A stretch of 58,751 nucleotides of DNA, taken from IMG/VR virus record IMGVR_UViG_3300035190_001906, positions 1 through 58,751 of that record; one strand, written 5' to 3'. A program made the position numbers and the translations under genes. Source of the stretch: a virus. Shown here piece after piece: positions 320 through 43,021 of the stretch. The notes under the pieces are model-generated. The model was not told the DNA's origin and did no database searches. It saw only the letters and a list, made by a program, of their open reading frames with translations. How positions within the stretch are numbered: position 1 is the first letter of the stretch; each line of letters begins with the position of its first letter.

Positions 320-3300
320 ATGGAAGAAACAGATCGCTACGGCCTATTCGCGCAATACGACTTTGAGTTGACGGGTGCATCCTTGAAAAATATGGCATCC
401 GTGCGATCGCAATTGTCTGGATTAGAGAAGGGAATTGCCAGGGTTGCCGATGCCGTTAATAAATCGGATTTTGGCCGTGGGTTAGAATCTGCATCTCGTC
501 GCGCTCAAAAATCTACCTCCAAAGCGGGTACAGAAATTGATGAGTTAGCTCAGTCCTTGAAACTTGCTGAGAAAAGGCTGAAACCTCTAAAAAGAGAGTT
601 TAGAGCCTTACGAGCCGAAATTCGGAATGTTGATTTTGGGGGGGTAGAAGATAAGGGTAAGTTCCGACAAGCTGCACGGGAAGTCAAGAATTATGTCGCT
701 ACACTTAAAACTTTAGAATCCCAAATTGAGGGGAATACCGCAGCCGAACGGGAATTTGCTGCAACACTAAAAGCGCAACAACGTATCTCTAGTTCCAAAC
801 TTGAGATGCAGATGCAACAACGAACTGCTGCCCTGTCTGCTCAAAGGATTGGGGAGTTTTCTGCACTCAGAGATATTGGTAGAAATGCCCTGATTCCGAT
901 TAATCAGGAAATAGATAAAGGGGTTAATCTATTCTCCGCCTTTGATGACTCAATGGCTTCCGTTGGAGCAGTGTCGGGAGCAACGGGAAAAGACCTGGAG
1001 AAGTTGCGCCAAACAGCTAAAAATTTAGGAGCTTCAACTCGCTACACTTCTTTCCAAGCTGCGGAAGCTGAAAAATATTTAGCAACAGCCGGGTTCAAAA
1101 CGGCTCAAATTTTAGGGACAGTTTCTAATGCCCTGGAATTAGCTTCTGCTGGGGAATTGGACTTGGCTCGGTCTGCCGATATTTCCTCAAACATCCTGTC
1201 CGGTTTTCGACTCAAAGCGGAACAGTTGTCTTCCGTTGTTGATACCCTTGCCCTAACTTCCGCCTCAGCCAATACGAACATCGAACAATTGGGTATAGCT
1301 ATGACCTACGCTGCACCCCCCGCATCTTTGTTCGGAGCTTCGATTGAGGAAACCTCAGCTTTTATTGGGGTCATGTCCAACGCTGGTATTCAGGCAGATA
1401 AAGCGGGTACGGCTGCTAGGAGTGCATTTTTACGTTTAGCTTCCCCAGTTAAACAAGGGAAAGTTGCTTTAGATTCATTAGGGATTTCAACAATTGATAG
1501 TTCTGGCAACCTCAGAAACTTTGTTGATTTGATGTCTGAAATTTCTGATAAATTAGCCCTCGATCCTGAAACCCTGAAAAAAATTCAGATGGCAGGGGGA
1601 GATTTAGAGTTAATCGAAAATGCTATTCCTGATAGTAAAAAAATTGAAGCCCTCAAGGGAATTTTTGGAACTACCGGAATTTCTGGGGCAACCGCAGCTT
1701 TAACTCAAATGGCTGAATTTAAACGTTTAAGTTTGGCTAACTTAGCTTCCAGTTCTAACACTGACCAGATAACCCAATATTTCAGTCAGATGGGAGTCAA
1801 GGTTGCCGAGGGTCAGGATATTTTCACTGCGATTGGTGAACAAGCCCCAGATTACCAAACCGCAGCTTCCTTAATTACCCAAGCTAATTCTCAATTAATG
1901 CAGTCCAACCTGCAAACCCTGTCCTCCCTCCAACGCAATAAACTTTACGAATATTTCAAGGTTTCTAAGGACAAAGATCTATTCACTGAAATTACCCGCT
2001 CAACCCAAGACTCTCAAGAATCTGTTTCCCGACTCAACACCGCTATGAGTTATTTAGGAGTTGAGATGAAGGTCGAGACTCGCGCTGCCCGTCAAATGGC
2101 AAAAACGATGGAGGATAACTTAGCGGGGTCATTTAGAGCATTAGCGTCCGCCGCAGAAGCCGTTTATATTAACTTAATCGAACCACTCTCCCCAATTCTT
2201 CGACTTGTTATTAATGGCATAACTAAGGTTTTGTTAGTTGTTGCTAATGCCCCTTACCCAATCCGTCTCTTAATTGGATCTGTTATTGGGTTGACCGCAG
2301 CAATGGCGGCAACTGCTGTAGCTGTAGGAACCGTTGGATTTTTCTTGTTCTCGTTTTCTCAAGCCGCTGCAACGGCCGCGATCGCATCTCAAACCCTTGC
2401 ATCTGGATTAATACCCTTAACTGGCTTTTTTCAATCCTCGATGCTGGGATTTATTGGTACTAACCCCCTGGAGACTTTCTTTCAATACAACACTGAGTTA
2501 GCTAGTGATTTTTCGTTGGCGTGGAAAAGAACCAGTCAAAAAACCGTTGGGGGATTGGGGGGGATTTATAAAGCCGTTGTCACTGTCACCAAAGCCACCT
2601 TCCTGTTGTCACGGGCATTTTTGTTTTCACCCATAACGTTATGGGTAGGATCGTTTTTACTGTTAAACGCCTTCATTGAGCAAGCAATTCCAGGGTTCAA
2701 TTTACTCGGTTCCGCCCTGAGTCTTGTTACCGCACCCCTGGGATTTATTTGGGGATTAATCAAGGGTATTGGCCAATCCTTGATGGAAGTATTGGGGATT
2801 GTCGGGGGCGGAACTATTGGTGTTTTAGCTGCTCCGATTCATACCTTCACTAACGCCCTGAATAACGCCCTGGAAACTTTTAAATCATTTTCAGATCGAG
2901 GGGAAGAACTGGGATTGTATTTGGGACGGTCGATTGTTGCCCCGATTGAAAACGCTGCAATTTTGATTGATACAATTTGGCAACAAGTTTTGGGAGGGAT
3001 TCAACTTGTTTCTATGCTTGCGGTGATGTGGATACAGGGGGCATGGCAAGGATTTGTTGATCGCTTCAAACAAATTCTGCAACCTGTCGTTACTATCGCC
3101 CTGACTATTGCCCAACAATTAATTAATGCCTTAAACCACAACCCTACAGAACGGATTCCCGAAGCATGGCACAAAGCCGTAACCTTAATTAAAGGATACC
3201 TGTCGGACTTATTAAAATTTGCTCAAGATATCGGGAATAGAATTGCTGAAACTGGAATTGCGATCGCAACTTATTTCCAAAACCTAATTCAATCCATCGC

Positions 3301-6300
3301 TAATACCGTTGGTGTTATTGGCACAGTCTTTAGAATTGTTGGCAAAGGAATATCCCTACTCTTTAAAGCATTTGTTTTTATTGAAACCAAGGCAATTCAA
3401 GGGATTTTCTTGTTAGGGGAAGCAACAATTTGGCTATATAAAACCCTGTTTACCGTTGGACTTCAAGCCATCGACATCCTCAAGAAGACTTATGATCAAG
3501 CCTTTGAGACAATTCAAATTTTTAGCTCCGCCTTTGGATATGGAGAATTTTCACCCGATGACCGTGCGATCGCACGTCAAACCTTAATTCTCGGAACCCT
3601 AAATAGCATTGGTGCTGCCTTTGGGTTAGTAGCTCAGGGCGGAAGAAAGGTAGTTGATGTGTTCTATAGTATCAATAGCTTAGTGACTCAATCCATTGAG
3701 AAGTTTGATTTATTAACCCTGGCTTTGATGACCGCAGCATCTCTCCCTATGACTTTGATTGGGATGTTAGATGAAGCTGCTCATTTAATTATTCCAGAGT
3801 TAGCGTTACTGACTCAACCGGGATTATTCAAAGCCCTAGTCTATGCTATGCCTGGAATTATTGCCACCGCTACGGCAACTGGGATAACTCAAGGATTCCA
3901 AAAAGGGTTTACAAATGCGATCGCTAAACTTCCAGATCAATTAATTGGAACCGTTGACTGGGTACACAGCTTAATCCCTCAAGATTTGCGTGATGAAATT
4001 AATTTCGCTTTGTCTGACGTATTTAATCGTCCGGTTGATACCAGCGCAGTGTACACCCAAACTCGCGGTTTCCTAGATAATCAATTTAGATCGTTTACCG
4101 ACTACCTACAGCAAGTTGGTCAAACCATCAAAGAATCAAGTATTGCATTTCGGGAGTTTCTCAAGCCGTTCCTAGAATATGACATTCTAGGGGTTGCAGT
4201 TATCCCAGCCCTGACTACAATTATTCCCGCGTTTCAAGCCTTCTGGGAAGTTTTAAAAGCTCCTTCTGTTGCTGGGATTCTGAAATACCTAACTTTTACT
4301 GTTCTTCCGGCTTTAGGTCAAACTATTTTAGCGATCGCAGAATACCTTAATAACATTCGCTTAATCGTAATGCTTCCTTTTGTAAGCGTTGCTGTGCGGA
4401 TGATTCAAATTTTAACCGAGAAAATTCAATCCTTAATTCCTCAAATCTCCAATCTAAGGAAAACTTTACTGGCATTATCTAAAACTTTAGGGGTATTAGC
4501 TGTTCAAGGAATTGCTTCATTTTTACGGACAATTCCTTATGTGGGAACTTTCTTGGCTAACAACTTCCTGTTAATTGTAGATGTCATTGCTACCAGCTTC
4601 CCAATTTATATCAACCTGTTGAAACGCTTTATTTCCGTTGATATGTTGAAAGCGTTAATTCCTGCCTACGCCAAGGTTGTTAAGGGAATAGCCACAGGGA
4701 TTATCTATATGTTTGAGCAGGGATTTAAACCCCTAGCTCAACTATTATTCAAAGCCCTGAATCCTTTTGGGACGTTTAAGTTATTGGGTTTATATTTTAA
4801 AACTCAAGGCTTTAAAGGATTAATTAAGACCCCACAGTTATTAGATGTCTTCGGAGTTCTTAACTTTATTAACCCGTTTGATGTCCTGTTCTCAGTTTCT
4901 AAGAATGTAAATGCGTTCGTTAAACTATTCACGAATAGTGCAGAATTTTCTTATGACATGGTTTTGAAAAAGCAGACGATGTTATTCCAGTCGCTTAAAA
5001 CTAATAGCCCTGCATTTTATAAATATATGCGAATGGGAGCATTGATTCCCTTAGAAGAATTATTAGAACAATCTCCTGCCCTGGTTAAATTCTTTGTTCA
5101 ATTGACCAGGGGATTGATGATGATTTCCCCAATCGTGCAAATTGTTGGGCGAATAGCTTTAGCATTTACGGTTTGGTATCAAATCCTTAAACCCGTGAAT
5201 GAGGAGATGTTGAGCGCGATCGCTGCTACAGAAGTTATGGGGTATAAGCTGAAATTACTGGCTGATACCATTCGAGTATTGCGGTTTTTGGTGGTAGATG
5301 GTTCAGATGCGTTTATCTGGTTTGCTTTCTTTGTTCCCAAGGCGATTAATGCTGTTGTCGTTGCCTTCAGAGTTTTAGGGGATACTGCCTATTACGTCCT
5401 GCACGATGTCATTAGTTTAGGGATTTTAGGATTTAATGCTTTAAAAATTACCGTTATTAATCCTCTCGTAGTTGCCTTAATTGGTGCAACTGTCGCTTTA
5501 AGGGCTTTCTTAACTGTTGTCCAATACGCCTTGATATTTATTCGCCTAAAAACCCAACAATACGGTGATGCTATTCACAAAGGGTTTGGGGCTGTGATGC
5601 AGCAAATAGCTAGTGATGTTTGGGGTGTAATTAGTTTTCTTGGTATCCAACTTAGTAACGCCTTTGTTCTGATAACTTCTGCTGTTCACAGGACTTGGAA
5701 ATCTTTGACTGGTTTGGTAGGTGCGATCGCGCATGAAATTTATTTAATTCTCGTTGACCCCGTTGGGGAATTTAATCGACTGTTGATATTGTTGGTGGGA
5801 GAAGTTAATAACCAAATTGAAAGAACAGGAACCCTATTAGACCGACTCCCATTCAAATCTTTAATTGTATTAGTCCAGAAGTATTGGCGGGAATTGATGT
5901 TTGCAGGAGGGATTGCTTTGCAATTTGTCAAAGCCCTAAATCCTGCGGTGCGGATTAGTTTGTTGTTAATAGATTTAGCTTTAGCGTTAGTCAATGAATA
6001 TGAGACTGGATTTAAGCGATTAGATGCAATTATTCAGGCATTAAGTCATCCTATTGCATTGTTAGATTCCATGATTAAGGGACTGGTTAGCTTCCTGCAA
6101 GGAGGTTTCATCCCCTTAGATGCTGCGGATTGGATTTCCAAATTTATTGCTGGCTTTATCAAGATGATTCCCGTTGTCATGGGAGGATTCTTTGTTGTAG
6201 CTCTCTTGATTAAGCGAGATGTGGGGGGAGCCTTCCAATTGGTTTCCGACAAGGTATTGTTATTTATTGGTCGGATTATCCAAGCGGTTGATGCAGTAAA

Positions 6301-9300
6301 ATCCCTTGGCTATTCTATTAGTCGTATTTACAAAGGGGATTTAGTTCAAATGAACCTTTTAAATACTATTCACGGTGTCCGTTCTAAAGATAATTTCGGC
6401 CCAATTCAAAACCCGTTTGCCTATTCTCAAGATCCCGTTCAACAACAATACGCCGTAGGGATTGGTGATCAACGCAAACAGAAAGCACAAGCCCTGTTGA
6501 GCTACCAGAAAGAACTGGACTACATGGCTAGACAGGAACAGAAAAGAGCAGAACGAGAATTAATTCGGAGAGCTAAAACGAGCCATCCTGACTTAATGAA
6601 TCCAGAGCATAGTTTTTACATGGATTCCCCTGATCAACCTGGGGTTAAAGTTAGAATGTCTGGCGCACAGGTTGAGAAGCGTCGAAATCGGTTTGGAATT
6701 GAGGGATATCAAGTAACCCAATTGGGTCGTAGCGTTATGGGCGCTGCAAACCAAGGATATAATGCTTTTCGATATGGGGAAAGTTATGAAGCAGAGGAAG
6801 CTCGGAAACAAGCTGCGAAAAAATCAGGACTAGCTAGTGTTTACCAACAATATCACGGTCATGATCTAAAACCCGATCACTTAGCTAGGTTATCAGCAAC
6901 AACCAACGATGAAGAAAATATATTTACTCGCAACAGTCTAGCCCCACTTCTTAGATCATTCCAAGATTTCTTTGAAAATATTCATGTTAAAGATTTTAAG
7001 GTCAATGATTTCTATGTTGGGCGTTTAATAGACACTAAATTAAAGAGTGGAATGATGACTCCTAAATCCTTGGATTACCAAGTGGAATCATTTTTGAATC
7101 CGCCCGTAGGAATGGCAAGTTTGTCATCAAATCATCAGGAAGTTTTAAAAAAATATGTGCCAACAGCATCTATACCTACACCGTGGGAACATTCCGAGAT
7201 GGGTGTGAAAGGACTGTACGGCTTGGATGCGTCTAGGTTTGAAGTTGAACGTGAGAGAATGATAAGGGAGTATAAAGAAAGATTAATCAAGTCCCTTGAT
7301 GATCCAAAATATAGTAGGACACACTTTTTTGGTACAGATATGGGTTCGGGCATTGGTACTAGCAATATTGGAGGAGGATCTGTAAATCAATTTTCGTCAG
7401 TGTCAAATGAATTAACACGCGAATTAAATCAAATTATTAGTAATGCGTTTGGCAAAATAAATAGCGGTACAGATAAAGAAACAGCAACTCGTTTAATAAA
7501 AGAGTTTCAATTAGAATTTCAACAATATCAAGCTAAAATGATGGCAAATAATTTGCCTTCTACTCATCGAGATCAGTTCTTGGATTTCACTGAAGCAAAT
7601 TCTAGGGCGATTACGATGGGAGATAACTTTTCTGGGGGTAAAATAGCCACTGGATTTGATGTTATCACTCAAGGGATTACTAACGTTCGTTTGTCTGCTA
7701 ACAGAGCTTCCGGTGAATTAACGGATGAATTGGGCGCAACACGAAAATCATTAATGAGTTTAATAGTGGAATCAACTGGGATTCCTAAAATGCTTGAATC
7801 TTTAAACATTAATAATTTATTAGGTCGCCAAGTTCGGAGTACCGAAAGAAAAGTCAATCGCAACAATCGACAAGCCGAGAAGTTCAAAAGACTTGCCCTT
7901 TATCACCGAGAAACTGGTCTGAGAGCATTCCTGGCGAACAAAGGACATACGGACAGTAATCCTGATACTGCGTTAACTAATTACGGGACGGCGAATAATG
8001 TTGGGGAAGATACGATTTCTGTTTTAAAAAATTGGAGGCAAACAGGTAAATTCCAGAGGGAATTAAGTAGTAAAGAACAGGGGCATATTACTGATTTTTC
8101 TACAACTATAAGAACACAACTGGAACGCTATAACGAGACACAACACTTAGATAATAAAGTCAATGATTTGAACAGCCTTGCTAGGATGATGAACCGACTT
8201 GCTTTGGATAAGACAAAACCGGATTTCAACTCTGGCCATGTTCAGGATTTAGTGAAATTTTTAGAACACGGCGTTATGGCTGATGACGCTAAAGGGAATG
8301 GTATTATCCAAAAAAGGCTGAATGAAATTTTATTGAGTATAAATAGTGCATTAGGTACTGGTGGTAGTGATGCGTGGACTTCTACGATGTTGGAAGAAAT
8401 TAAAGGTAATATTGGTAGGAATAAAGAACCCAAGGACAAAGATAATCTACTTAAAATTATTCGACAAGTTATGTTGAGTGACAAAAAGTTTGATCCAGAT
8501 AAGTTTTTTGTAAGAGCAGATAAAGATGCGATCGCAAAAGAAATGGGATTCCGCTACGAAAGTCAATTGCGAAAAATAGGTGAGACTAAACTTGCTAATC
8601 CCATTCAACAACTCAAGCAGTCCGTCAGGGATTATATCTTCCAGTTTGAGGAAAATATGCTTACCTTCCATCTGGAAAATATAGATACTTTGGGCAGGGC
8701 TAAGGAATTTTTACTGAGAAGATTGAAACTAGAGAAGCTCCCATTTGGGAATATTGCCGGGCGTTTAGATTCTATTATCAATGCTTACTCATCTTTCGCT
8801 GACAAAATTAAAGATCAATATTTAAGATTAAAAGGCACGGGCAAAGAAAACTTAGGCAAGATGAGTACATTCTTCAATGAAAGGATTAACTTTAAATCTT
8901 CAATTGATAGAGCTATATCTAAATTCAAGACAGCTAAATCAGGCAATATTGAAGGTTTCTTGGAGATGGTTAGTGAACGACAAAAAACAAAAGTAACTCG
9001 CCGTTTGCTACAGGCTAATTTCTATGGACAAATGTTAACGTCTGGTGTGGATCAAGCGGATGCACGGAAAGCTATGTTGGCTCTATATAAAAGACAGGGT
9101 GATAGCAAAACCTTGAGACAGGAGATGAAGGGATTTGATCTTGAGGATACTACCATCGCATCCATCGAAAAAGTTTTATCTCAAATCACAAACTTAAAGC
9201 AAGATGAGATTTCTAGGCATCTTATGGACAAACAAGGATTGAGCTTAAAAGGGATGATGCCGATTCAATTCTATATTGCTCAAGAAATTCCTGGGATTTT

Positions 9301-18300: not shown

Positions 18301-21300
18301 TCAGTTCTGGTCAACGGTTTTAGAAGCACCAACATTAAAAGGAAAAGTAGACGCTTTTATGTCTAACTTCTCCTTTTTGAGTATTCTAAATTATGTTGAT
18401 GATGTTGCGATCGCCTTTGATAGACTCAGGGAAAAAGTCGGTCAAGTCACTTCCTGGTTATCTAATTTAATTACAACTTGGAATCAAGTTACCGATAAAG
18501 CTCCTAAACTCAAACTTGATATTGATACCGCATCCCTAGAAACTAAAGCTAATAATTTAATTGATAACGTTCAGGGTAAATGGAATCAATTAGTTAAATT
18601 CTTTGAGAATCCTAAATGGCCGACAGCGCGACAAACTTGGCAAGGGTTGTTAGATGGTTATGGGTGGCTGCGATCGCAGTTCCGCACTATTACCGATTGG
18701 TTTGGACGTACCCCCGAAATGTTAGCCCCTTTCTTTAATCAGTTGAAACTTGGGGCTGATAAGGTTGGTGAGTTTCTATTCAATATGGAATTGCAGTGGG
18801 TGAAATTAGTTTTAGCTTTTAATCTTCCCCTCCCCATGTTCTATCAATTGTTTGAATTTATTAACGCAATTCCGAAGTTGTTTAAAGCGGGAGTAATTCA
18901 AGTTGAAACCAGTTGGACATGGTTGGCTAACGAAATTGCTAATTTAAACTGGAAAACCTTAACCCATGTTTGGAACGGATTTAGTAAATTATTTGGGTTG
19001 CTGGGTACATCCTTGGATTTCGCCGAAAATAAATGGCGAGAGTTTCAATCTTATATTTTGACTTCTCCACAACTTCTTGCACCTATATTCGAGAAACTCA
19101 GAAATGGGTTACAAGGGTTTAGTGGTCTTATTGTTAGGTTATTTGAAAGATGGAAAAATTTTGCTACCCAATTCCATCTTCCTCACTTAGAAGGACTTTT
19201 TACTCCGTTGTATGCACTTTCCGAAATTTTTCAAATGGTTTTAACCGGAATTGAAACCCGATGGGAGAAATTTGCAACTTGGTTAGGGACAACTGAATTA
19301 TTTAGTTATGTCCTGGGTGGGTTGAAAAATTTATCCTACGCCTTCAGTACGGTCACGGGATTTATCGGTAGACATTGGAATACATTGGTTGAGTTTTTGC
19401 GGTCAACTCAATTATTGGTACATTTAGGTAATGGTATTGTTCTCTTAGTTGAATTTGTTGATAACCTGTCTACTACCATCAGTAACCTAAAACAGCGTTG
19501 GAATACCTTCTTGGAAGCCAACGAGACAACAGTTAAACGAATTAAACAGGCGTGGGAAGGATTTACGACAAGTTTCAAAACTATCCTCAAACCAATTGTT
19601 GAGTTTGCGCTAGATATTGCTCAGAAATTAATTAACGCCTTAAACCATAACCCGACTGAGAGAATCCCCGAAGCGTGGCGTAAAGCGGTTGAATTTATCC
19701 AAGGAAAATTGTCGGGATTGCTAGACTTCGCTAAGGACATTGGTAAACAATTGGTCTTTGCGTTGGTCGGGAAGGATAATGTTACTGGATTCTTTACCCG
19801 TTTTAATAAGGAGTTGGGCGAATCGAACTCTGTTGTCACGGAAATCAAGAGTAATCTTCGCGCTTTGTTTAACGATGTTAAGACGGTTTTCTCTAATGTA
19901 TTGAGTGCAATATCAGAGATTTCTGCTATTGGACTCCCTCTTATTAGAATAATGCTTGAATCCATTAAAACGGAATATACAGTTTACTTTAATTCAATTG
20001 TTACTTTATTTAAAAACACAAAAACTTATCTGGCAACCAGTTTTACCAATGTATTGACGGGAATAGCAAACTCAATAAAATTTGATTTACTGATTGCATC
20101 TTTGGGCGAAGTTAAAACACAAGTAGATGAACTGTTTAGAACATTATCTGGTGTTTTCTCTAGTTTTGGGCAAGCATTGGTAAACTTCAAATTTGGATCG
20201 GGTAGAATACTGAAGTTTATCAAGAGCTTTGGTGAAACTGCCGTAAATGCTGTAAGTGGTTTGTTTTCTGCGATTGGTCAACAATTAGGAAGTGCTGCGA
20301 CCGAGATAAAATCGGGAATAGGATTAGCGTTTAGTGGTTTTATTACCCAACTTAGAACACTCCGAACAGGAATAGAAACAACGCTCACATCAATCTCTGA
20401 ATATTTCTCTAAATTTGGAGCTATCAAGGACAAATTTATTGGTTTTATCTCAGTGGTCTTTAGTGGAATCAAAGGTTTTATTTCTGGTATTGTTGACTAC
20501 TTCAAACAGTTCTTTACTGAATTAGTCGCAGCAAAAAATGTAGGTGAAGCCTTTGCGATTATTTTAGGCGGGTCACTGAAAGGAATTTTAAATACAGTTA
20601 ATTTCCTGTCTTCTGCTTTTGTCCAGTTGGCTTCTATTATTCTGCACCCTATTCAATCTATTAAGAAATTTGGCGAGGTTACGGGATTGACCGACCTGTT
20701 GAAATTATCTATTGAGGGGTTAACAAATGTATTCAAAACCTTAATTTCTGTAGTTGGTTTCTTTATTCGGTTGGCAGTCGATGGATTGGTATTGATTTTA
20801 AAAATTACAGTTAGATTGTTTCAAGCAATCCTTGACCCCATTACAGCTTTCCGTGATTTAGATAAAGGAATTACATCGGTAGTGCGATCGCTTGGAGAAG
20901 CTGCTCCAGGGTTAAAACCACTACTTGATATTTTGGATTTTACAAGAAAAATATTACAAGATTTAACTATAAATTTTGCTAAATTCTCAGCAGGATTTGG
21001 TGTTGGCTTTGTGAAAGGGTTTATTGGCGAGATGGAAAATCTCTACAATGCTTTGATTAAATTTAAAGACCCTTTGATGACAATCTCAGAAGCCTTTGGA
21101 AAAATATTTTCGTTTATCACAGAGAGTGTACCTAAAGCATTCTCTGAAATCTCAAAATTATTTACTCCCGTACAAAAAGTAGTGACGGAGGTTAACAATG
21201 GATTGACGGCTGTTGCGCCAGCGACAACCGCGATCGCTAATAGCATATCAACTGTTGCGCCAGCGACAACCGCGATCGCATCTGGTATGTCAACTGTTGC

Positions 21301-24300
21301 GAATAGTGCGACAACCGTTGCTAATGGTGTTTCAAACGCTGCTACGAATATAACGGCTGCTGCTAATGCTGTACAGGGGATTACCACTGGGGTTACAGAA
21401 CTTGGTAATAGTCTGACCAATGTTGGCGGTGAAATTGGTCAGACTACCACTGCGATCGCGGAAACAGCAAAACAGATAATTAATATATTCCGCATTGGGG
21501 AAGATTTGGGTCGTAAATTTGGGTCAGTTAGTGCTACTGCTTTTACATCAGTTATCAATGTTACAAGGGATTTGATTACTGTGTTTGCAGATTTACTAAA
21601 TAAATATGCAGTTCCTTTCTTAAATACTTTAGCCAGAATAGCTAAGTTTGTAGCTTACTTCTCGAAAGGTTTATTCACGGGATTATTCACAGAAATATCT
21701 AAAGTTACTCCTGCCTTCAAGGAGATTGGGAGAGCAATCCTCAAAATACTGGGGGCATTAAAACGACTCGCTCCTATTATTGCTACTGCGATCGCAGCGT
21801 TTTATGGGTTTAACGCTTTATCTCCTGTTGTTGATTTTATTGGTCATATTTTAAATCACTTTGATTTATATCCTGCCGCGATCGCACTTGTAACAGGCGC
21901 AATCGGAACATTAGTTTTAAATTTCAAAAACTTATTTGATACAACAAAAAGCTATACAGAAATTGCTGAAAGTTTAGGGAATAAAATTGGTGAGATATTC
22001 GGGGGGATGGTGAATCTAGCTATTAAATCTATTCAAACTATTGTCTCGGTTATTGCGGAGGTGTTAGACGCGGTTTCTAAAATACCCAACGCAATCCTTC
22101 ACCCTATTGAGACGTTTGAATCTGTGATGACAGGAGCGGGAGATGTTATTTCCGATAAGTTTGATGGGGTTACTCAAGGGATTGGGGGTAAGTTTCAGGG
22201 AATGTTTAATGGAATCAAGAAGCGTTTAGGTCTATTTGTTGAAGAAACTGAAGTTGAAGGGGGAAGCGTGGAACAAAACTTATCTAACGATCCTCCTGGC
22301 CCTACTTACATGATTCGTAAGAAGTGGTTTGAGATGTTGGATATGATCGGGGATCGAGTTGAAGATTTCACGTCCTTTACTAAAAAACAAGGACAGAAGA
22401 TTCAATCCGCAGTTACAATCTCTCCACAAGTATCTTTAGGTGATCAAACTCAATCTTTGCGGAATCAGTTTGGAGTAATTCAACAAATTCAACAGGCTCA
22501 GGCAGATAGCGTTCAAAATTTAGGTAGTAATGGATTGCGAGGAGTTTTAGTTTCAATCAATTCCTTGATGTCTAATTTTTCTGGTCAACTTAAACCATCG
22601 CTATTTCTTCTGAATGAATTTGTTGATGCGTTTGTTGATATTAAAACCTTGTTACCCAGTCTCCAAATGGAGATGATAAATTTCGGAAAAGCCGTCGCTA
22701 TTTCAAATTCAATTGCTGCTGGAACTTTTTCTGATTTAGCGATCGCAATGAATTCTTTTCGTTCTTCAAGCCTCCCAATGCTACCGTCCTCAGATCGTTC
22801 AAATCTCCCTGTGTTAGCATCGCCAGATCGTCTAAATTCTTATTCTTCTTATTCACAGTCTGATGTAATTGACGTAGAGTTTAGGGTACTTGGCACGGAA
22901 CCCATTCCCAATATTTCTGATGGTGTTCAAGGTTTGGATGGTGGGTTACAGGGATTGCGTGGAACATTAATTTCTGTAGGTTCCCTGTTATCTAACTTCG
23001 CACCCGAATTAGCAACTCCGCTTTTTGTCCTGAATGATTTTATTGATGCGTTTGTAGATATTAAAGCATTGCTTCCAACCCTGGAGGCGGGCGTATTGGC
23101 TTGGGGAAATTCGATCGCGGCTTCTAACTCATTCGTTGGCGGAACATTTACTTTACTCAAGGCTGCTGCATTAAAAGCCTATACAACCTTGCTTGTTCCC
23201 ATACTGCCATTCTTGCCAATTATTTTAGGGGTTATTGCTGCGGTCGGATTATTCTACTTAGCCTTTAAATCCAACTTCTTAGGAATCCGTGATTTAATCT
23301 ATGGTGTGGGTTGGGCATTTAAGAAGTTCTTTGGGGATTTGTTCGGAGGCTTCTTTGCTGCGATTGGTAGTATTTTTACTACGATTGACAGGGAAGTAAG
23401 AGCGATCGCTTCTGTCTTTGGGGAATTAGTTTCTACTGTTATCTCAATCTTTGACCCAATCCTGAAACTATTTGGTATTGATGTCGGCAACAGTGTTTTG
23501 AATCTATCTGATGTTTTATCGGCAGTTGTCAATGCTTTGCTGTTCCCGATTCGGATTCTAGTAAAATCCCTTAACTTCTTAATTACAACTATTTCCTGGG
23601 GAATCCAATTAATAGTTAAATCGTTGATTTTTACTGTCAACGTTATTAAAACGATTTTATCCTTTACCTGGGAACTCATAAAATCAATTCTAATTATTGG
23701 TGCAACTATAGGAGGGATTGTAGCAGTCCTGAACTTTGGTGCAGTTCTAGCTGGGATTGTCTCTGCTTTTGCAACGATAGCAGGTTTAATTGGCTCTATT
23801 AGTGTGATCGTGAGTGGAATAATTTCAGGGATTGTATTTGTAACACCCTTTTTGATTACAGGGGTTGCGTCAGTATTGACAATGATTGGAGGAGCTATTA
23901 CTGGTATTGCGATCGCAATAGCTCCAATTCTTCCTGTAATCCTCTTGATTTCAGGTGTTTGTGCTGTAATTATTGGAGTTGCTTTTGTTATCAAGAAAAT
24001 ATTTGAAGGAATTTGGTGGGTAATTTCTTCTGTTATTAACTCGATTTCATCTATTCCTTTCGTCGGTGGTTTATTTGGGGGTCAACCTAAAACAGAAAAA
24101 CCCCCAGGTTATGCAACTGGGGGTTTAGTTAAAGGATCGGGAACAAGTACAGGAGATCGTATTCACGCAAAACTCTCACCTGGAGAATATGTAATTAATG
24201 CCTCCTCAACTAAAGCCAATCTTCCTTTACTTGACGCAATTAATACAGATAAAGCAAGCGTAATATCAACTCCTCAAATCATGGCATCGCCTACATTTGC

Positions 24301-24502
24301 TCCTGTTCCCTTCTTCCCCCCAACTCAATCTGAATCTGCGGGAGGACAGGAATTTAATATTAATTTGAACTTTGGGGATATTATCGTTCAGGGTGAAACT
24401 GGAGAGGATGTTTATCGTGATTTCTTGAATAAGTTGCGATCGCCTCAAGCAAAAATGGAAATTCGTCAAATTATGCGGGAATTTGTTGAGCGTATGAGGT
24501 AA
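320..24502 (+). CDS. Giant phage tail tape measure protein (8060 aa)
   Basis: Tape measure proteins fill the tail tube during assembly, set tail length and are ejected into the host. Residues about 205-375 carry the TP901-type tape measure core (AFDDSMASVGAVSGATGKD, then GASTRYTS and GIQADKAGTAARSAFLRL). Residues about 600-2000 and much of 3860-8000 alternate amphipathic and strongly hydrophobic helices. Residues about 2000-3860 are hydrophilic and helical. The C-terminus (about 7930) has the usual GGLVKGSGTSTGDR...LSPGEYVIN motif. The protein contains five copies of LINALNHNPTERIPEAW, two degenerate copies and several internal duplications. Typical tape measures are 600-2500 aa, so this one is extreme; at roughly 0.15 nm per residue the tail would exceed 1 micrometre if all of it is ruler. 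The ATG has no clear Shine-Dalgarno. HIP1 sites occur throughout and the frame is intact. Confidence 0.95.
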   Translation: MEETDRYGLFAQYDFELTGASLKNMASVRSQLSGLEKGIARVADAVNKSDFGRGLESASRRAQKSTSKAGTEIDELAQSLKLAEKRLKPLKREFRALRAEIRNVDFGGVEDKGKFRQAAREVKNYVATLKTLESQIEGNTAAEREFAATLKAQQRISSSKLEMQMQQRTAALSAQRIGEFSALRDIGRNALIPINQEIDKGVNLFSAFDDSMASVGAVSGATGKDLEKLRQTAKNLGASTRYTSFQAAEAEKYLATAGFKTAQILGTVSNALELASAGELDLARSADISSNILSGFRLKAEQLSSVVDTLALTSASANTNIEQLGIAMTYAAPPASLFGASIEETSAFIGVMSNAGIQADKAGTAARSAFLRLASPVKQGKVALDSLGISTIDSSGNLRNFVDLMSEISDKLALDPETLKKIQMAGGDLELIENAIPDSKKIEALKGIFGTTGISGATAALTQMAEFKRLSLANLASSSNTDQITQYFSQMGVKVAEGQDIFTAIGEQAPDYQTAASLITQANSQLMQSNLQTLSSLQRNKLYEYFKVSKDKDLFTEITRSTQDSQESVSRLNTAMSYLGVEMKVETRAARQMAKTMEDNLAGSFRALASAAEAVYINLIEPLSPILRLVINGITKVLLVVANAPYPIRLLIGSVIGLTAAMAATAVAVGTVGFFLFSFSQAAATAAIASQTLASGLIPLTGFFQSSMLGFIGTNPLETFFQYNTELASDFSLAWKRTSQKTVGGLGGIYKAVVTVTKATFLLSRAFLFSPITLWVGSFLLLNAFIEQAIPGFNLLGSALSLVTAPLGFIWGLIKGIGQSLMEVLGIVGGGTIGVLAAPIHTFTNALNNALETFKSFSDRGEELGLYLGRSIVAPIENAAILIDTIWQQVLGGIQLVSMLAVMWIQGAWQGFVDRFKQILQPVVTIALTIAQQLINALNHNPTERIPEAWHKAVTLIKGYLSDLLKFAQDIGNRIAETGIAIATYFQNLIQSIANTVGVIGTVFRIVGKGISLLFKAFVFIETKAIQGIFLLGEATIWLYKTLFTVGLQAIDILKKTYDQAFETIQIFSSAFGYGEFSPDDRAIARQTLILGTLNSIGAAFGLVAQGGRKVVDVFYSINSLVTQSIEKFDLLTLALMTAASLPMTLIGMLDEAAHLIIPELALLTQPGLFKALVYAMPGIIATATATGITQGFQKGFTNAIAKLPDQLIGTVDWVHSLIPQDLRDEINFALSDVFNRPVDTSAVYTQTRGFLDNQFRSFTDYLQQVGQTIKESSIAFREFLKPFLEYDILGVAVIPALTTIIPAFQAFWEVLKAPSVAGILKYLTFTVLPALGQTILAIAEYLNNIRLIVMLPFVSVAVRMIQILTEKIQSLIPQISNLRKTLLALSKTLGVLAVQGIASFLRTIPYVGTFLANNFLLIVDVIATSFPIYINLLKRFISVDMLKALIPAYAKVVKGIATGIIYMFEQGFKPLAQLLFKALNPFGTFKLLGLYFKTQGFKGLIKTPQLLDVFGVLNFINPFDVLFSVSKNVNAFVKLFTNSAEFSYDMVLKKQTMLFQSLKTNSPAFYKYMRMGALIPLEELLEQSPALVKFFVQLTRGLMMISPIVQIVGRIALAFTVWYQILKPVNEEMLSAIAATEVMGYKLKLLADTIRVLRFLVVDGSDAFIWFAFFVPKAINAVVVAFRVLGDTAYYVLHDVISLGILGFNALKITVINPLVVALIGATVALRAFLTVVQYALIFIRLKTQQYGDAIHKGFGAVMQQIASDVWGVISFLGIQLSNAFVLITSAVHRTWKSLTGLVGAIAHEIYLILVDPVGEFNRLLILLVGEVNNQIERTGTLLDRLPFKSLIVLVQKYWRELMFAGGIALQFVKALNPAVRISLLLIDLALALVNEYETGFKRLDAIIQALSHPIALLDSMIKGLVSFLQGGFIPLDAADWISKFIAGFIKMIPVVMGGFFVVALLIKRDVGGAFQLVSDKVLLFIGRIIQAVDAVKSLGYSISRIYKGDLVQMNLLNTIHGVRSKDNFGPIQNPFAYSQDPVQQQYAVGIGDQRKQKAQALLSYQKELDYMARQEQKRAERELIRRAKTSHPDLMNPEHSFYMDSPDQPGVKVRMSGAQVEKRRNRFGIEGYQVTQLGRSVMGAANQGYNAFRYGESYEAEEARKQAAKKSGLASVYQQYHGHDLKPDHLARLSATTNDEENIFTRNSLAPLLRSFQDFFENIHVKDFKVNDFYVGRLIDTKLKSGMMTPKSLDYQVESFLNPPVGMASLSSNHQEVLKKYVPTASIPTPWEHSEMGVKGLYGLDASRFEVERERMIREYKERLIKSLDDPKYSRTHFFGTDMGSGIGTSNIGGGSVNQFSSVSNELTRELNQIISNAFGKINSGTDKETATRLIKEFQLEFQQYQAKMMANNLPSTHRDQFLDFTEANSRAITMGDNFSGGKIATGFDVITQGITNVRLSANRASGELTDELGATRKSLMSLIVESTGIPKMLESLNINNLLGRQVRSTERKVNRNNRQAEKFKRLALYHRETGLRAFLANKGHTDSNPDTALTNYGTANNVGEDTISVLKNWRQTGKFQRELSSKEQGHITDFSTTIRTQLERYNETQHLDNKVNDLNSLARMMNRLALDKTKPDFNSGHVQDLVKFLEHGVMADDAKGNGIIQKRLNEILLSINSALGTGGSDAWTSTMLEEIKGNIGRNKEPKDKDNLLKIIRQVMLSDKKFDPDKFFVRADKDAIAKEMGFRYESQLRKIGETKLANPIQQLKQSVRDYIFQFEENMLTFHLENIDTLGRAKEFLLRRLKLEKLPFGNIAGRLDSIINAYSSFADKIKDQYLRLKGTGKENLGKMSTFFNERINFKSSIDRAISKFKTAKSGNIEGFLEMVSERQKTKVTRRLLQANFYGQMLTSGVDQADARKAMLALYKRQGDSKTLRQEMKGFDLEDTTIASIEKVLSQITNLKQDEISRHLMDKQGLSLKGMMPIQFYIAQEIPGILKGLFKDVRAITGAAIKVSKIDKIIGKIFTDVAAGLQQTIAPKMSSFVFRQARILSGLSLSVSNIIRRTFGENVIEKWFVGLSKTLFDSSIKLRADIKILGKDSKSYTAKLLDAGQFLFKTLSNGIISAAKALANPKSIWISIQGFFGKVKNFFGKLFPKRPGTLAEVDQQIARNQMIKTRSERLMGSKNLGETQKAKANKLYQSSNRELDRLQAERFALTSTPEAIAEKVMGLSHKITQKQSTALRRKSQIEAVEKPLSGLVDPEYKKSAQAYEQLQEKHRRIREQFKAENKQLIEGDIGGDHRAIPATLDAKRKQNKEIKGMDSSIEKLVKDLNKLRAKGLNNKAPEYTEILSKIKDLGIKRKKASYGKMSPEEIIEYDNIYDEMEVRIKKLGQLSKQIQKLEKQNPNLKQHRKKSYANTVGEIESQRSTLKSNYENTLAEIEKLKEQKKLISGRTSPFLVFMTDLAVLTQKVGRNIVDLATNQKSKKIDLFKQTAKDFMKFKEKVTPLVNELFAELMQKGANATARLSQYFENVARRSAIAWRRSQREVEGKTWPGWLKAAYRVGKTLVMTLNHGTTDVISEAWGRTRIAATENMQQMVESAHEAGTGIQRGLGQSLEKTEGFFSRLKAGLMDWAFPVRKINRQIEALKPAHQAAKESYESQKVYTFKDERKKQQKFGKFNSLNLQIEQLEAQKEAQQMMNRLGRFMGGLFPGRQFKTPQQYPKLARIALKRFHRRFNNFFGGLFKAKSKHLQLPAMNFSSPRINVGQSMEDASRRVVLAWKRAGREIRGKEWPTLIKAASRVGKTLVNFLNHGAADVTTDAWGRTQRTTAHSMHQMAETAHQTGGQIQSTFERAINKTIHLFGLLGKSVGNVGRAGMAIGGVVSATGFAAQSVFYSLSNIGLIDEETSQSLYKVTELISIFGAVTGLGTPLIMAFTSSVSALGTVAATVGTAVMGLGRAMSLAVGLGASPFAPLVLGIGAVSLAVFGLYKAFNANFMGIRDIIQNTLVVPIEFIQSAWEGFVAKFGGILTPIVKPALDIAQHLINALNHNPTERIPEAWEGAKERIQGSLTGLVDTGYRAGNQLNQALDPTKAGERKHLAAVVKEKLTGIKFEDQGYLDRFKQWFSSLQESITSVFSQNLITNNKLDIQTELMQKQLKIQEFQQAQNLWKTLSNRDRNTKIQGFLESKDWFQSIKGAVNKTPLKSLGGTFAGKQLTKVGGFLAMTMGLSGGPLLSLSLGIGAVTTALALLYSVFADDFGGIRTKLEKVIGKITQLFVMSVQAIKSAWVGFVSWFFDMPLVQAALVIAKGLINALNHNPTERIPEAWEGAITRIKEMFGWLIAPAQAIASNLTNLFSPVTQWFSGLFKPKQSQSTPIQKHQLINKESRSISSNSIWELLVAKIGLLIIKITEIVKSLNTYNQKFTQFNQRLDEKLNALIQNLPERMQGKRKSNSDIYTAIGFAVALKTSGFMSAMLGLFNITKEIYGLLAKGTIQQGIRNYVGSEKFTNFRDKAKSVSSKIKPFQPLLPITSFLVPQVAPITGLLSTFVLVMEDLPGYLEKFGKFIPWIAGLSGALLGVVTVLEILTPHLNVLGVIAGGIGFIFRGISGVITGFTDTLRNFNKESSRGDLSQQSSFFSDFVQTAGKISALGESLGTKFGEFLAFAFVDPIQFIMRAWLGFSEWFSNLPLVGHALNIATGLINALNHNPTERIPEAWDVATNRISGMLGDTVTVAQKTGQQMTTALSSGVDTVKSGAIAVRDNSVKTVRNVFLGDMSPFADLLDNIFRDNLRFSTQQIFSVLVSVLGVQNQILAETRKVVEQAIAINTTIQGLNQTVSGFNTSIDNTTDKSILDEVTKFNTNLAVVQEYLKPKPVVAPERGEKVAKSNANWFDHLFNNPMSEQIALRQNQLIQEMVNNSKSSSLTLSSEFSKYVFKEEKTGKTELTKEGQIYLETKIAKEYRDHEGAFSKEFVQYFATKYGRTKEQVYQEGLQKQPIIKEAIKALPETQKSLTEKQSTPGNKIAGGFNPLGQEGFLGIGGNQKGWRMDQTIYNSGTTLGGVERDLTSAANYIKGFGGNLLTSTLDLFQGGEASIRDKVTQQVSARQNQLIYEMANNSISESSALRSEFSKYITRGQYGNPELTQEGQTYLEKKLATEYRDRKGAFSNEILQNFAGKSGKTADQVHNIGLQGQPIIREAIKALPEKEKSLAEKIAPQIDRVVQSIDQSSKILSGIIQSIDQTSKILSDILNEFKIPDEIKPLVEIPIQSMPQSQSQPKQSLWDNSTNFVADLWGKVTSYFDGYYAKTKVPYKNPQKLTEPSIPDFKNNIVPYRPKSVGDVVNPIIKEKTSKLIPVVQQKASQIIPAAQQAVSGLAERWQKHRKNEPVVDDLVTNAETEWDNKESWWEKNFKSIRKSWGLTSSTVSKGIDKLVAQAPDQGYELQKGLAEGSPGPTFYIRKYWKKTINQVTDWMGDLAGSAAKTGISLAQSMGVGTVKTAIAITPFVSEATKNEAIQSIEAGIISIQDRYDYLEAQGFGNLGVLFEPGAAQVTDALQLLGGDIADFAKRSVNALLTLNFGELAQASKDFGGNLAFALKGLTAGFNSMGLSAIAAGAAVLTGMAPAIITIGAIAFGAAVILANFLGIRSILKGIIQILVATGKIVFFTFMAAGRVLKGFSLILRGLFGDSELIKQGIAEIKDAFQVLGQQLKLEFKAIAQGFLSIGEGLKIALVQIFPFLKQPLQDLKQWFDEFWSVFALSPERAGRMAAEALIDFVKNIFRAFNNLRLSVISTWQKMMVWFKIQLWQAKDWVVEAFRKMSQLDFSFLQDIPNALLNGFKWVAEKIPTLFQGTGDGILSRILNPIRDGFNAIAQFVKGFSDRINEELQLVFPGWMKSLGQSIIPLFDTLSNGAQGLRDAIVNLGAQWVKLALGFDLPIGYPFFEFLDSLVQRFQSTVVTIEKAWLKFFVNAGKLEWNQITEDIGNTLKSGFKSLATSVGQLWNQFWSTVLEAPTLKGKVDAFMSNFSFLSILNYVDDVAIAFDRLREKVGQVTSWLSNLITTWNQVTDKAPKLKLDIDTASLETKANNLIDNVQGKWNQLVKFFENPKWPTARQTWQGLLDGYGWLRSQFRTITDWFGRTPEMLAPFFNQLKLGADKVGEFLFNMELQWVKLVLAFNLPLPMFYQLFEFINAIPKLFKAGVIQVETSWTWLANEIANLNWKTLTHVWNGFSKLFGLLGTSLDFAENKWREFQSYILTSPQLLAPIFEKLRNGLQGFSGLIVRLFERWKNFATQFHLPHLEGLFTPLYALSEIFQMVLTGIETRWEKFATWLGTTELFSYVLGGLKNLSYAFSTVTGFIGRHWNTLVEFLRSTQLLVHLGNGIVLLVEFVDNLSTTISNLKQRWNTFLEANETTVKRIKQAWEGFTTSFKTILKPIVEFALDIAQKLINALNHNPTERIPEAWRKAVEFIQGKLSGLLDFAKDIGKQLVFALVGKDNVTGFFTRFNKELGESNSVVTEIKSNLRALFNDVKTVFSNVLSAISEISAIGLPLIRIMLESIKTEYTVYFNSIVTLFKNTKTYLATSFTNVLTGIANSIKFDLLIASLGEVKTQVDELFRTLSGVFSSFGQALVNFKFGSGRILKFIKSFGETAVNAVSGLFSAIGQQLGSAATEIKSGIGLAFSGFITQLRTLRTGIETTLTSISEYFSKFGAIKDKFIGFISVVFSGIKGFISGIVDYFKQFFTELVAAKNVGEAFAIILGGSLKGILNTVNFLSSAFVQLASIILHPIQSIKKFGEVTGLTDLLKLSIEGLTNVFKTLISVVGFFIRLAVDGLVLILKITVRLFQAILDPITAFRDLDKGITSVVRSLGEAAPGLKPLLDILDFTRKILQDLTINFAKFSAGFGVGFVKGFIGEMENLYNALIKFKDPLMTISEAFGKIFSFITESVPKAFSEISKLFTPVQKVVTEVNNGLTAVAPATTAIANSISTVAPATTAIASGMSTVANSATTVANGVSNAATNITAAANAVQGITTGVTELGNSLTNVGGEIGQTTTAIAETAKQIINIFRIGEDLGRKFGSVSATAFTSVINVTRDLITVFADLLNKYAVPFLNTLARIAKFVAYFSKGLFTGLFTEISKVTPAFKEIGRAILKILGALKRLAPIIATAIAAFYGFNALSPVVDFIGHILNHFDLYPAAIALVTGAIGTLVLNFKNLFDTTKSYTEIAESLGNKIGEIFGGMVNLAIKSIQTIVSVIAEVLDAVSKIPNAILHPIETFESVMTGAGDVISDKFDGVTQGIGGKFQGMFNGIKKRLGLFVEETEVEGGSVEQNLSNDPPGPTYMIRKKWFEMLDMIGDRVEDFTSFTKKQGQKIQSAVTISPQVSLGDQTQSLRNQFGVIQQIQQAQADSVQNLGSNGLRGVLVSINSLMSNFSGQLKPSLFLLNEFVDAFVDIKTLLPSLQMEMINFGKAVAISNSIAAGTFSDLAIAMNSFRSSSLPMLPSSDRSNLPVLASPDRLNSYSSYSQSDVIDVEFRVLGTEPIPNISDGVQGLDGGLQGLRGTLISVGSLLSNFAPELATPLFVLNDFIDAFVDIKALLPTLEAGVLAWGNSIAASNSFVGGTFTLLKAAALKAYTTLLVPILPFLPIILGVIAAVGLFYLAFKSNFLGIRDLIYGVGWAFKKFFGDLFGGFFAAIGSIFTTIDREVRAIASVFGELVSTVISIFDPILKLFGIDVGNSVLNLSDVLSAVVNALLFPIRILVKSLNFLITTISWGIQLIVKSLIFTVNVIKTILSFTWELIKSILIIGATIGGIVAVLNFGAVLAGIVSAFATIAGLIGSISVIVSGIISGIVFVTPFLITGVASVLTMIGGAITGIAIAIAPILPVILLISGVCAVIIGVAFVIKKIFEGIWWVISSVINSISSIPFVGGLFGGQPKTEKPPGYATGGLVKGSGTSTGDRIHAKLSPGEYVINASSTKANLPLLDAINTDKASVISTPQIMASPTFAPVPFFPPTQSESAGGQEFNINLNFGDIIVQGETGEDVYRDFLNKLRSPQAKMEIRQIMREFVERMR
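3119..3169 (+). repeat. Tape measure motif LINALNHNPTERIPEAW, copy 1
   Basis: Encodes residues 934-950 of the tape measure protein. It lies in a longer module that begins about 30 residues earlier with AWQGFVDRF and ends with an amphipathic helix. The protein motif is identical in five places while the DNA differs at silent positions, so it is under protein-level selection. Confidence 0.85.
11021..11059 (+). repeat. Degenerate tape measure motif LNHGTTDVISEAW
   Basis: Residues 3568-3580. It keeps the LNH...EAW frame of the main motif and lies in a block of about 70 residues (AWRRSQREVEGKTW onward) that is duplicated about 240 residues later. Confidence 0.55.
11738..11776 (+). repeat. Degenerate tape measure motif LNHGAADVTTDAW
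   Basis: Residues 3807-3819, in the second copy of the duplicated block (AWKRAGREIRGKEW onward). The LNH...AW frame is kept and the centre has diverged. Confidence 0.55.
12437..12487 (+). repeat. Tape measure motif LINALNHNPTERIPEAW, copy 2
   Basis: Residues 4040-4056, preceded by SAWEGFVAKFGGILTPIVK and followed by EGAKERIQGSL. Confidence 0.85.
13238..13288 (+). repeat. Tape measure motif LINALNHNPTERIPEAW, copy 3
   Basis: Residues 4307-4323, preceded by SAWVGFVSWFFDMPLV and followed by EGAITRIKEMF. Confidence 0.85.
14405..14455 (+). repeat. Tape measure motif LINALNHNPTERIPEAW, copy 4
   Basis: Residues 4696-4712, preceded by RAWLGFSEWFSNLPLV and followed by DVATNRISGML. Confidence 0.85.
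15011..15340 (+). repeat. Tape measure internal duplication A, copy 1
   Basis: Encodes about 110 residues beginning QIALRQNQLIQEMVNNS and ending ALPETQKSL. The same block recurs at 15602-15931 with clear residue-by-residue alignment (EFSKY, EYRD.., GAFS, IIKEAIKALPE). Confidence 0.8.
15602..15931 (+). repeat. Tape measure internal duplication A, copy 2
   Basis: Second copy of the block at 15011-15340 (QVSARQNQLIYEMANNS to ALPEKEKSL). The DNA has diverged enough that the duplication is old. Confidence 0.8.
16649..16684 (+). repeat. Tape measure motif SPGPTFYIRKYW
   Basis: Residues 5444-5455. It is related to PPGPTYMIRKKW at 22292. Both have a Pro-Thr turn, then Ile-Arg and a Trp, and so resemble the NPTERIPEAW motif in layout. 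Confidence 0.6.
19628..19678 (+). repeat. Tape measure motif LINALNHNPTERIPEAW, copy 5
   Basis: Residues 6437-6453, preceded by QAWEGFTTSFKTILKPIVE and followed by RKAVEFIQGKLSGLLDFAK. Its flanks are closest to copies 1 and 2. Confidence 0.85.
22289..22327 (+). repeat. Tape measure motif DPPGPTYMIRKKW
   Basis: Residues 7324-7336, partner of the motif at 16649. A further duplication follows it: a block of about 70 residues (GLRGVLVSINSLMSNF near 22530) recurs near 22950 (GLRGTLISVGSLLSNF). Confidence 0.6.
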
Positions 24503-26518: not shown

Positions 26519-26857
26519 ATGACCAAAAAAATTTATCGATCTGAAATTTACGAGATTCTAAAGCTACAAAAAAGATTACCTGGTATTATTTCCCAAGTAA
26601 AAGAAATCATGGAGAGTCTTGTAGATTATCCGTTTTCAGAATTAAAAAGTTCTAGTTCTGCCGGAGATCATTGCCTCAGAACATTTCATTTAGCGCATAA
26701 TATTACTTGTTCGCTAAACCACCTCAATGACAATATTAACTATATAAATGATATTGCCAAAGATGAGGACGAGGACGAGGATGAGGATGAAGATGATGAT
26801 GACGAGGACGAGGACGAGGATGAAGATGACGAGGACGAGGATGAAGATGACGAGTAA
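26519..26857 (+). CDS. Small protein with a 31-residue Asp/Glu tail (112 aa)
   Basis: Residues 1-81 are a mixed helical domain (MTKKIYRSEIYEILKLQKRL; two Cys at about 52 and 64). Residues 82-112 are only Asp and Glu, encoded by a GAGGAC/GATGAA-type simple repeat at about 26764-26854. Pure acidic tails occur in DNA mimics, histone-like protein inhibitors and chaperones, so an anti-host or nucleic-acid-mimic role is possible but not shown. It is a single-gene unit with its own promoter and terminator, on the strand opposite to both neighbours, which suggests early or separately controlled expression. Confidence 0.7.
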   Translation: MTKKIYRSEIYEILKLQKRLPGIISQVKEIMESLVDYPFSELKSSSSAGDHCLRTFHLAHNITCSLNHLNDNINYINDIAKDEDEDEDEDEDDDDEDEDEDEDDEDEDEDDE

Positions 26858-26870
26858 ATAAAAATAGATC

Positions 26871-26906
26871 AAAAAAAGACCCGCTAAATTATAGCGGGTC
26901 TTTTTT
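26871..26906. terminator. Bidirectional terminator
   Basis: Arms GACCCGCT and AGCGGGTC extended by A7 and T6 runs give a 14-bp stem with a 7-nt loop. It lies between the convergent acidic-tail gene and endolysin; the endolysin stop codon overlaps the T run. Confidence 0.85.
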
Positions 26907-31722: not shown

Positions 31723-32343
31723 CTAAACCTTAATCCTGTGTTTATATCGACCCAATGGTTGAACAAAGCGCTCAAACCAAGTTCCAAGTGAAGCATTTTT
31801 ATTTTCCCCAAGTTTGAATTGCTGACTCATGCCCCCTGGTAGGTTTACGCTGGTCAAATCCCTTGTTGGTTCTTCTAAGGAAAAAGTATCGCAATTATTC
31901 TTAACAGAGTGACGTAACAAGGCAAATGCGACATTCTCGAAAATAGGAGGAATTTCTTTCAGTCCCGCTATGTAACGGACTTCATAGTTTAATCCCGACG
32001 AGCTTATTCCCATTACATAAATAATTTCAATAGTGCGCTTGCCGTCCCAAGTCCAATAGGCATTAGTTAAAGTCGTTCCCCCAAATACAGGGTGAATCCG
32101 TTTGACCTCCAAAACCTTTGTAGGAGGGGCTTGGCTATTGATATTCAAATACCCTATATGGTTCGGAATGATCGTGGTGTGGTACTCCTTCGGTAACGGC
32201 GAATAACCCAACCAAGTATCGATCCGATATTCGATATCATCAATCATAAGTTGGATCGCGTCGAATGATGGGACTGTTTCAGGAGTGCGATCGCCTAGAG
32301 AGATTAATCGTTTTTGAACAGCTTCAGGGGTAATGTATGACAT
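31723..32343 (-). CDS. Head-tail connector/adaptor-like protein (206 aa)
   Basis: The N-terminal part (MSYITPEAVQKRLISLGDR ... IDDIEYRIDTWLGY) is helical like HK97 gp6/SPP1 gp15-type adaptors. The middle is a beta insertion (TKVLEVKRIHPVFGG; TIEIIYVMG). The end (DLTSVNLPGGMSQQFKLG ... LGRYKHRIKV) has the conserved adaptor tail that docks on the portal. Adaptors of this type join portal to neck. I chose the ATG at 32343 because MSYITPEAV is the usual start of this family and because the 10 extra upstream codons overlap the plus-strand promoter; an ATG at 32373 is the alternative. It leads the minus-strand operon 32343-28773. Confidence 0.7.
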   Translation of the reverse strand: MSYITPEAVQKRLISLGDRTPETVPSFDAIQLMIDDIEYRIDTWLGYSPLPKEYHTTIIPNHIGYLNINSQAPPTKVLEVKRIHPVFGGTTLTNAYWTWDGKRTIEIIYVMGISSSGLNYEVRYIAGLKEIPPIFENVAFALLRHSVKNNCDTFSLEEPTRDLTSVNLPGGMSQQFKLGENKNASLGTWFERFVQPLGRYKHRIKV

Positions 32344-32366
32344 TTGACTTTTAGATCGTGTATAAT
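32337..32366 (+). promoter_or_regulatory. Promoter for the 32446 gene cluster
   Basis: ATGACA (32337-32342), an 18-bp spacer and a perfect TATAAT (32361-32366). Transcription would begin near 32373, just before the leader hairpin. It overlaps the start of the minus-strand connector gene, so the two units may interfere. Confidence 0.65.
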
Positions 32367-32389
32367 TGAGCATAACAAAAAGAAATCCT

Positions 32390-37214: not shown

Positions 37215-37256
37215 TGTGTTAGTGTAGAGGTTAGATTTGTACACCTATATATTGTC

Positions 37257-37281
37257 AAAACCTCGAATTTTTCGGGGTTTT
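37257..37281 (+). terminator. Leader hairpin before the 776-aa gene
   Basis: Arms AAAACCTCGAA and TTCGGGGTTTT pair over 11 bp with one wobble, a 3-nt loop and more T after. It lies about 20 nt before the ATG at 37300 and after the tube gene, so it can both end the tube transcript and attenuate the next gene. Confidence 0.7.
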
Positions 37282-37299
37282 TTTGATTACCAAAAATCT

Positions 37300-42923: not shown

Positions 42924-42940
42924 CAATTAGTAATAAACAA

Positions 42941-42998: not shown

Positions 42999-43021
42999 AT
43001 CTTAGCGGATGGAGAAATATA

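Follow-up and report, generated by a model that had tools for sequence, protein, structure and literature searches.

The 8,060-residue reading frame described here is real and encodes a tape measure protein (TMP), and we think it rather probable that the whole chain acts as a ruler, setting tail length in a large cyanobacterial phage or phage-plasmid with a contractile tail. The 58,751-bp window, by which we mean the entire stretch of DNA analyzed, is a whole IMG/VR record and is probably a piece of a larger phage genome. The frame begins with ATG, encodes a protein of ~886 kDa, and contains zero internal stops; the original prediction of one intact frame filling 41% of the window is borne out. 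Its start agrees with those of relatives, as the window protein (MEETDRYGLFAQ...) and a homologue from Nostoc (METDFWGLSAQ...) align from their first residues. The 41% share merely reflects the window being a fragment; in pC052_F, a complete Nostoc plasmid, the TMP gene occupies 11% of 223 kb. The main features of the frame are as follows.

320-24502, + strand: tape measure protein, 8060 aa (profiles at both ends; end-to-end homology with the 8170-aa Nostoc protein)
935-1780, + strand: TP901-type TMP core domain, aa 206-487 (TIGR01760, NCBIfam tape_meas_TP901, 4.8e-53)
6320-11719, + strand: hydrophilic stretch, aa 2001-3800 (retained by relatives; helical period present; no known domain)
24104-24337, + strand: C-terminal TMP motif region, aa 7929-8006 (PHROG TMP families)

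The identification of the protein had rested on a TP901 core and a C-terminal motif, and profile searches support both. The TIGR01760 match scores 180 against a cut-off of 28.8 bits, Pfam PhageMin_Tail (PF10145) matches aa 230-418 with an E-value of 2.1e-40, and numerous PHROG TMP families match aa ~30-960 and the C-terminal third of the chain. The protein thus has what is expected of a TP901-type TMP, namely the core domain near the N terminus and a long, largely helical chain.

The 8,060-aa TMP is not unique, as a longer homologue annotated as a tape measure protein has already been deposited. This protein (WP_179070682.1; 8,170 aa, 110 aa longer than the window TMP and of the same size class) is encoded by pC052_F (NZ_CP040278.1), a complete circular plasmid of 223,442 bp from cultured Nostoc sp. 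C052. The two TMPs are collinear for ~3,360 aa from the N terminus, at 45% and then ~28% identity, and match again to the C terminus, with identity along the chain varying between 22 and 50%. A homologue of the window sheath (47% identity over 99%), annotated only as hypothetical, is also encoded by pC052_F, as are homologues of the tube, portal, adaptor, baseplate-type, and endolysin-like proteins. Because TMP, sheath, tube, portal, adaptor, and baseplate-type proteins are all shared, we read the window as a fragment of a phage of the pC052_F type, whose host is very probably a cyanobacterium. The plasmid, an apparent phage-plasmid in a cultured host, carries an annotated terminase and ParA/ParB, whereas no replication or partition genes were seen in the window, which is a fragment. 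Our literature search, which covered few subscription papers, found no paper on the pC052_F-type clade with giant TMPs.

Additional relatives were found among metagenomic records. An IMG/VR scan with the TMP N terminus as a single protein gave zero matches; motif and profile queries recovered the relatives. The nearest, G001 (62.5 kb), has a sheath 95% identical to that of the window, and its TMP frame (2,894 aa) is cut by the contig end; its DNA is 92% identical over window positions 15549-19782, and the C-terminal part of its TMP is arranged differently. In nine IMG/VR contigs that are more distant, the TMP frames range from 3,991 to at least 7,200 aa (at least 7,200 in G002, ~6,330 in two, ~4,850 in three, and 4,305, 3,991, and at least 5,086 in the others). 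G002, a 21.6-kb contig that is open from end to end, spans the equivalent of aa 29 to near aa 7,975. The sheath is also carried by two cyanobacterial MAGs; in a sample of 386 cyanobacterial genomes, G011, a MAG already known, was the only one with the full-length sheath type, and the remaining weak matches were mostly confined to the C-terminal domain of shorter frames.

The virion genes of the window point to a contractile-tailed particle with a head.

31723-32373, − strand: head-tail adaptor (PHROG 442, 1e-5)
33629-36619, + strand: contractile tail sheath protein, 996 aa (PHROG tail sheath, 7.7e-13)
36633-37214, + strand: tail tube protein, 193 aa (profile matches; directly follows the sheath gene)
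39631-41571, + strand: baseplate-type protein (weak Tail_P2_I match; first 300 aa 40% identical to pC052_F)
57393-58751, + strand: portal protein, at the record end (PF04860, 1.3e-20)

The earlier claim that the TMP lies beside a contractile sheath holds for the sheath itself, since a profile built from a six-member sheath alignment also matches tail sheaths of known structure (PDB 9ezm, 5e-14; 8bky, 5.1e-10). The word "beside" was loose: the sheath gene begins 9.1 kb past the TMP, with opposite-strand genes in between, and the records of larger relatives show separations of ~20-93 kb between the two genes. A sheath gene with an adjacent tube gene is consistent with myovirus morphology and sets the window apart from P74-26-like siphophages, the tails of which are non-contractile and sheathless. 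Head genes, which distinguish a phage from a headless tailocin, are represented by the portal in the window, a major-head-like gene in G001, and terminase in relatives. The Pfam terminase family PF03237 matched none of the six records searched; the annotated terminase used as a query did find homologues. The sheath is about twice the usual length and contains inserted tail-fibre-like repeats (GTxTxxGxGTxFxxxLxxGD) that match tail fibre profiles in PHROG and distal tail profiles from the PDB.

Several further genes of the window were characterized in passing. The proteins encoded at 29180-31663 (− strand) and 37237-39630 (+ strand) are paralogous to each other and to those at L004 4185-15817 and L031 45564-46781, with a common N-terminal segment (KEYxADWLKN...RDxxGxFAKKG) and differing C-terminal parts. 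Beyond the two in the window, at least six adjoin the capsid genes in G001, and pC052_F has one after the TMP; a Pfam search returned only TPR and helical matches for this family, the members of which look like polymorphic virion cargo. Tail-fibre genes at 52980-55618 contain internal repeat units of ~140-330 bp that are recombined differently in G001. A tail-spike/fibre protein (49702-50898; PHROG 4636, 8.5e-89) has a C-terminal end resembling self-cleaving chaperone domains, and a different fibre protein occupies this site in G001. A DNA adenine methyltransferase-like gene (42905-43825; PHROG 56, 2.7e-82), a small protein with a terminal run of ~35 aspartate/glutamate residues (26519-26857), and an endolysin-like protein (26905-28371, − strand; PHROG 181, 1.1e-18; 43% identity to a pC052_F protein) are also present, as are two same-strand ORFs (56178-56690 and 56525-57151) that overlap by 166 bases in different frames, an overlap kept in G001.

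Signs of a helical chain extend over the full length of the TMP. Every 400-aa block shows a helical period of hydrophobicity, with its peak at 94-104 degrees per residue; the period is weakest in the hydrophilic stretch (1.44-1.66) and still present there. Mean helical periodicity is 2.24 for the window TMP and 2.21 for the Nostoc TMP; the other window proteins tested reach at most 1.52, and the P74-26 TMP has 1.49. AlphaFold models of aa 2040-3229 (71% helix) and aa 3740-4639 (74% helix) contain almost no strand; they lend weak support to a helical chain because their pLDDT values are 36 and 35, respectively. Searches of Pfam, NCBIfam, and PHROGs revealed no enzyme, cargo, or other recognizable domain in the TMP beyond its core, and matches to COG6_N and SMC_prok_A were rejected as coiled-coil-type hits far below cut-off. 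Cysteine is nearly absent, with one in 8,060 residues in the window TMP, none in the Nostoc protein, and zero to three in relatives, versus 0.69% elsewhere in the window. As most ordinary TMPs and the P74-26 TMP (0 in 5,006) share this near-absence, it was rejected as a special trait; low cysteine characterizes TMPs in general and is seen here along the entire chain, and it supports TMP character.

Hydropathy changes sharply along the TMP. About 40 membrane-like segments were counted, compared with 27 expected in shuffled sequence, and they cluster at aa 620-1960, 3910-4600, and 7620-7890; this outcome of the proposed membrane-segment check leaves room for non-ruler parts. The hydrophilic stretch, which includes a strongly conserved motif (SGAxVEKRRNRFGIExYQVT), is not an insertion: three relatives each align with 81-88% of aa 2001-3200, collinearly and at 21-32% identity. 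Length differences among relatives fall mainly at aa 3200-3800 and 4400-6800.

Repeated modules are distributed along the chain. A module of ~60 aa ends in LNHNPTERIPEAW, with diverged forms LNHGAADVTxxAW and SPGPTxxIRxxW, and is present in 8 copies in the window TMP, 12 in the Nostoc protein, 9 in G002, and 3-8 in other relatives.

3029-3214, + strand: module copy 1, LNHNPTERIPEAW, aa 904-965 (8.6e-31)
10928-11107, + strand: module copy 2, diverged, aa 3537-3596 (2.2e-13)
11639-11821, + strand: module copy 3, diverged, aa 3774-3834 (7.0e-13)
12344-12532, + strand: module copy 4, aa 4009-4071 (7.1e-32)
13154-13333, + strand: module copy 5, aa 4279-4338 (4.7e-29)
14318-14497, + strand: module copy 6, aa 4667-4726 (4.4e-27)
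16538-16726, + strand: module copy 7, diverged form SPGPTFYIRKYW, aa 5407-5469 (1.0e-07)
19538-19723, + strand: module copy 8, aa 6407-6468 (1.8e-31)

Internal duplications pair aa 3523-3623 with 3762-3862, aa 4893-5010 with 5091-5207, and aa 7395-7489 with 7533-7630, and near the C terminus modules are rearranged in G001 relative to the window. Elongation of the TMP by module duplication would be the simplest reading of these patterns.

Published calibrations allow a tail length to be predicted. Mutants of TP901-1 gave 0.145 nm per residue once 127 residues are subtracted (PMC5099701), and ratios of 0.156-0.157 nm per residue follow for phage G, with a 450-nm tail and a TMP of 2,893 aa, and for T4, with 92.5 nm and 590 aa (PMC8570332). 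At these ratios, 8,060 aa correspond to 1.15-1.25 μm, or, with the tail rise of 3.62 nm seen in Anabaena phage A-1(L) (PMC10966104), to ~320-345 rings and 1,900-2,080 sheath copies. The whole chain would most likely be the ruler for a contractile tail with a predicted length of ~1.15-1.25 μm. If the ruler behaves like those measured, the predicted tail is well over twice the longest contractile tails that we found reported, 450 nm for phage G (PMC8570332) and ~418 nm for the Synechococcus phage S-CREM2 (PMC10665884). A further calibration through S-CREM2 gp124 (2,668 aa) was discarded: its length would fit 418 nm, but the protein lacks helical character and falls in no TMP family. In the cited cases, the ruler rule is supported to ~2,900 residues in contractile phages and to ~5,000 in siphophages.

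In the proposed mechanism, several TMP copies, mostly long α-helices, would lie inside the growing tail tube, and polymerization of tube and sheath would halt at the end of the chain, yielding the ~1.15-1.25-μm tail. The hydrophobic stretches would probably aid DNA entry as well, and TMP length within the family would have changed as helical modules, among them the ~60-aa module (3-12 copies), were gained, lost, and duplicated.

The original prediction left a choice between an exceptionally long virion and a chain with large non-ruler parts serving as cargo or pore, and our results lean to the long virion. In a partial ruler, the hydrophilic region (aa 2000-3860), the hydrophobic clusters, or the repeat modules would not measure, and these parts would be folded back, sit at the baseplate or connector, be cut off, or pass into the host as pore or cargo, leaving a shorter tail. 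The sharp hydropathy changes and the three clusters of membrane-like segments are compatible with such an arrangement, the conserved motif in the hydrophilic part could be functional, and cut or folded-back regions and the low model confidence may likewise leave room for parts that do not measure. Against these points stand the lack of any enzyme or effector domain in Pfam, NCBIfam, and PHROGs, the helical period throughout, the retention of the hydrophilic part in three collinear relatives, and the finding that hydrophobic segments of the TP901-1 TMP contributed to length, as their loss by deletion also shortened the tail (PMC5099701). We therefore regard a partial ruler as possible and doubtful.

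It is very unlikely that the window derives from a domesticated or decaying prophage-plasmid that makes no particles and in which TMP length is functionally meaningless. No clade member is known to make particles, and pC052_F contains several transposases, but open frames of 12-24 kb have been retained across large divergence, and the genes for sheath, tube, portal, major-head-like protein, and terminase are intact. An assembly error is essentially excluded: repeats inside the TMP gene could mislead short-read assembly into joining unrelated or repeated pieces, but the independent contigs and a finished plasmid with an 8,170-aa TMP provide equally long, collinear frames and, with the G001 match within the gene, answer the fusion concern that had been raised. 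The whole-chain ruler remains our preferred explanation.

Known systems resemble the window in single respects. The Thermus phage P74-26 has an extremely long, cysteine-free TMP (5,006 aa) and a tail of nearly 1 μm, whereas it is a siphophage and its TMP is 1.6 times shorter with an annotated metallopeptidase domain. In Bacillus phage G, a long TMP (gp183) sets the contractile tail length (PMC8570332), yet gp183 is 2.8 times shorter and carries C-terminal cell-wall hydrolase domains, none of which were found in the window TMP. The Lactococcus phage TP901-1 shares the TP901 core domain family, but its TMP is of the 937-residue class in a siphophage with a 118-nm tail (PMC5099701). S-CREM2 is also a contractile-tailed cyanophage with an unusually long tail; unlike the window, it is T4-like, and the window sheath had zero matches in the phage collection.

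Rulers of many lengths accompany one sheath type. Sheaths are ~995-1,010 aa in relatives in which both genes were found (1,022 for the G397 frame), and the TMP frames found with them comprise 4,305 (G397), ~4,850 (G006 and G007), ~6,330 (G004 and G005), 8,060 (window), and 8,170 aa (pC052_F). With a ~1,000-aa sheath and a TMP above 4,000 aa, the window falls within the pC052_F-type clade. Contigs sharing the TP901 domain alone have TMP frames mostly of 760-2,040 aa (one of 3,512 aa), and this sheath was found in one of eight such records checked (G397).

The clade offers a series of rulers (~4,300, 4,850, 6,330, 8,060, and 8,170 residues) with a single sheath type, so that the ruler rule is directly testable, and a test is feasible because a complete member is available in a cultured host, Nostoc sp. 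C052. The series could probe the rule at far greater length, along with micrometre-scale sheath contraction and the threading of a ~880-kDa protein into the tube. The chances are evenly balanced that this clade of cyanobacterial phages and phage-plasmids makes contractile tails of ~0.6 to more than 1.2 μm from essentially one sheath/tube pair, with length set only by the ruler gene. If so, its contractile tails would be the longest known, and, as a guess, they are perhaps adapted to reach through the thick polysaccharide sheaths of filamentous cyanobacteria.
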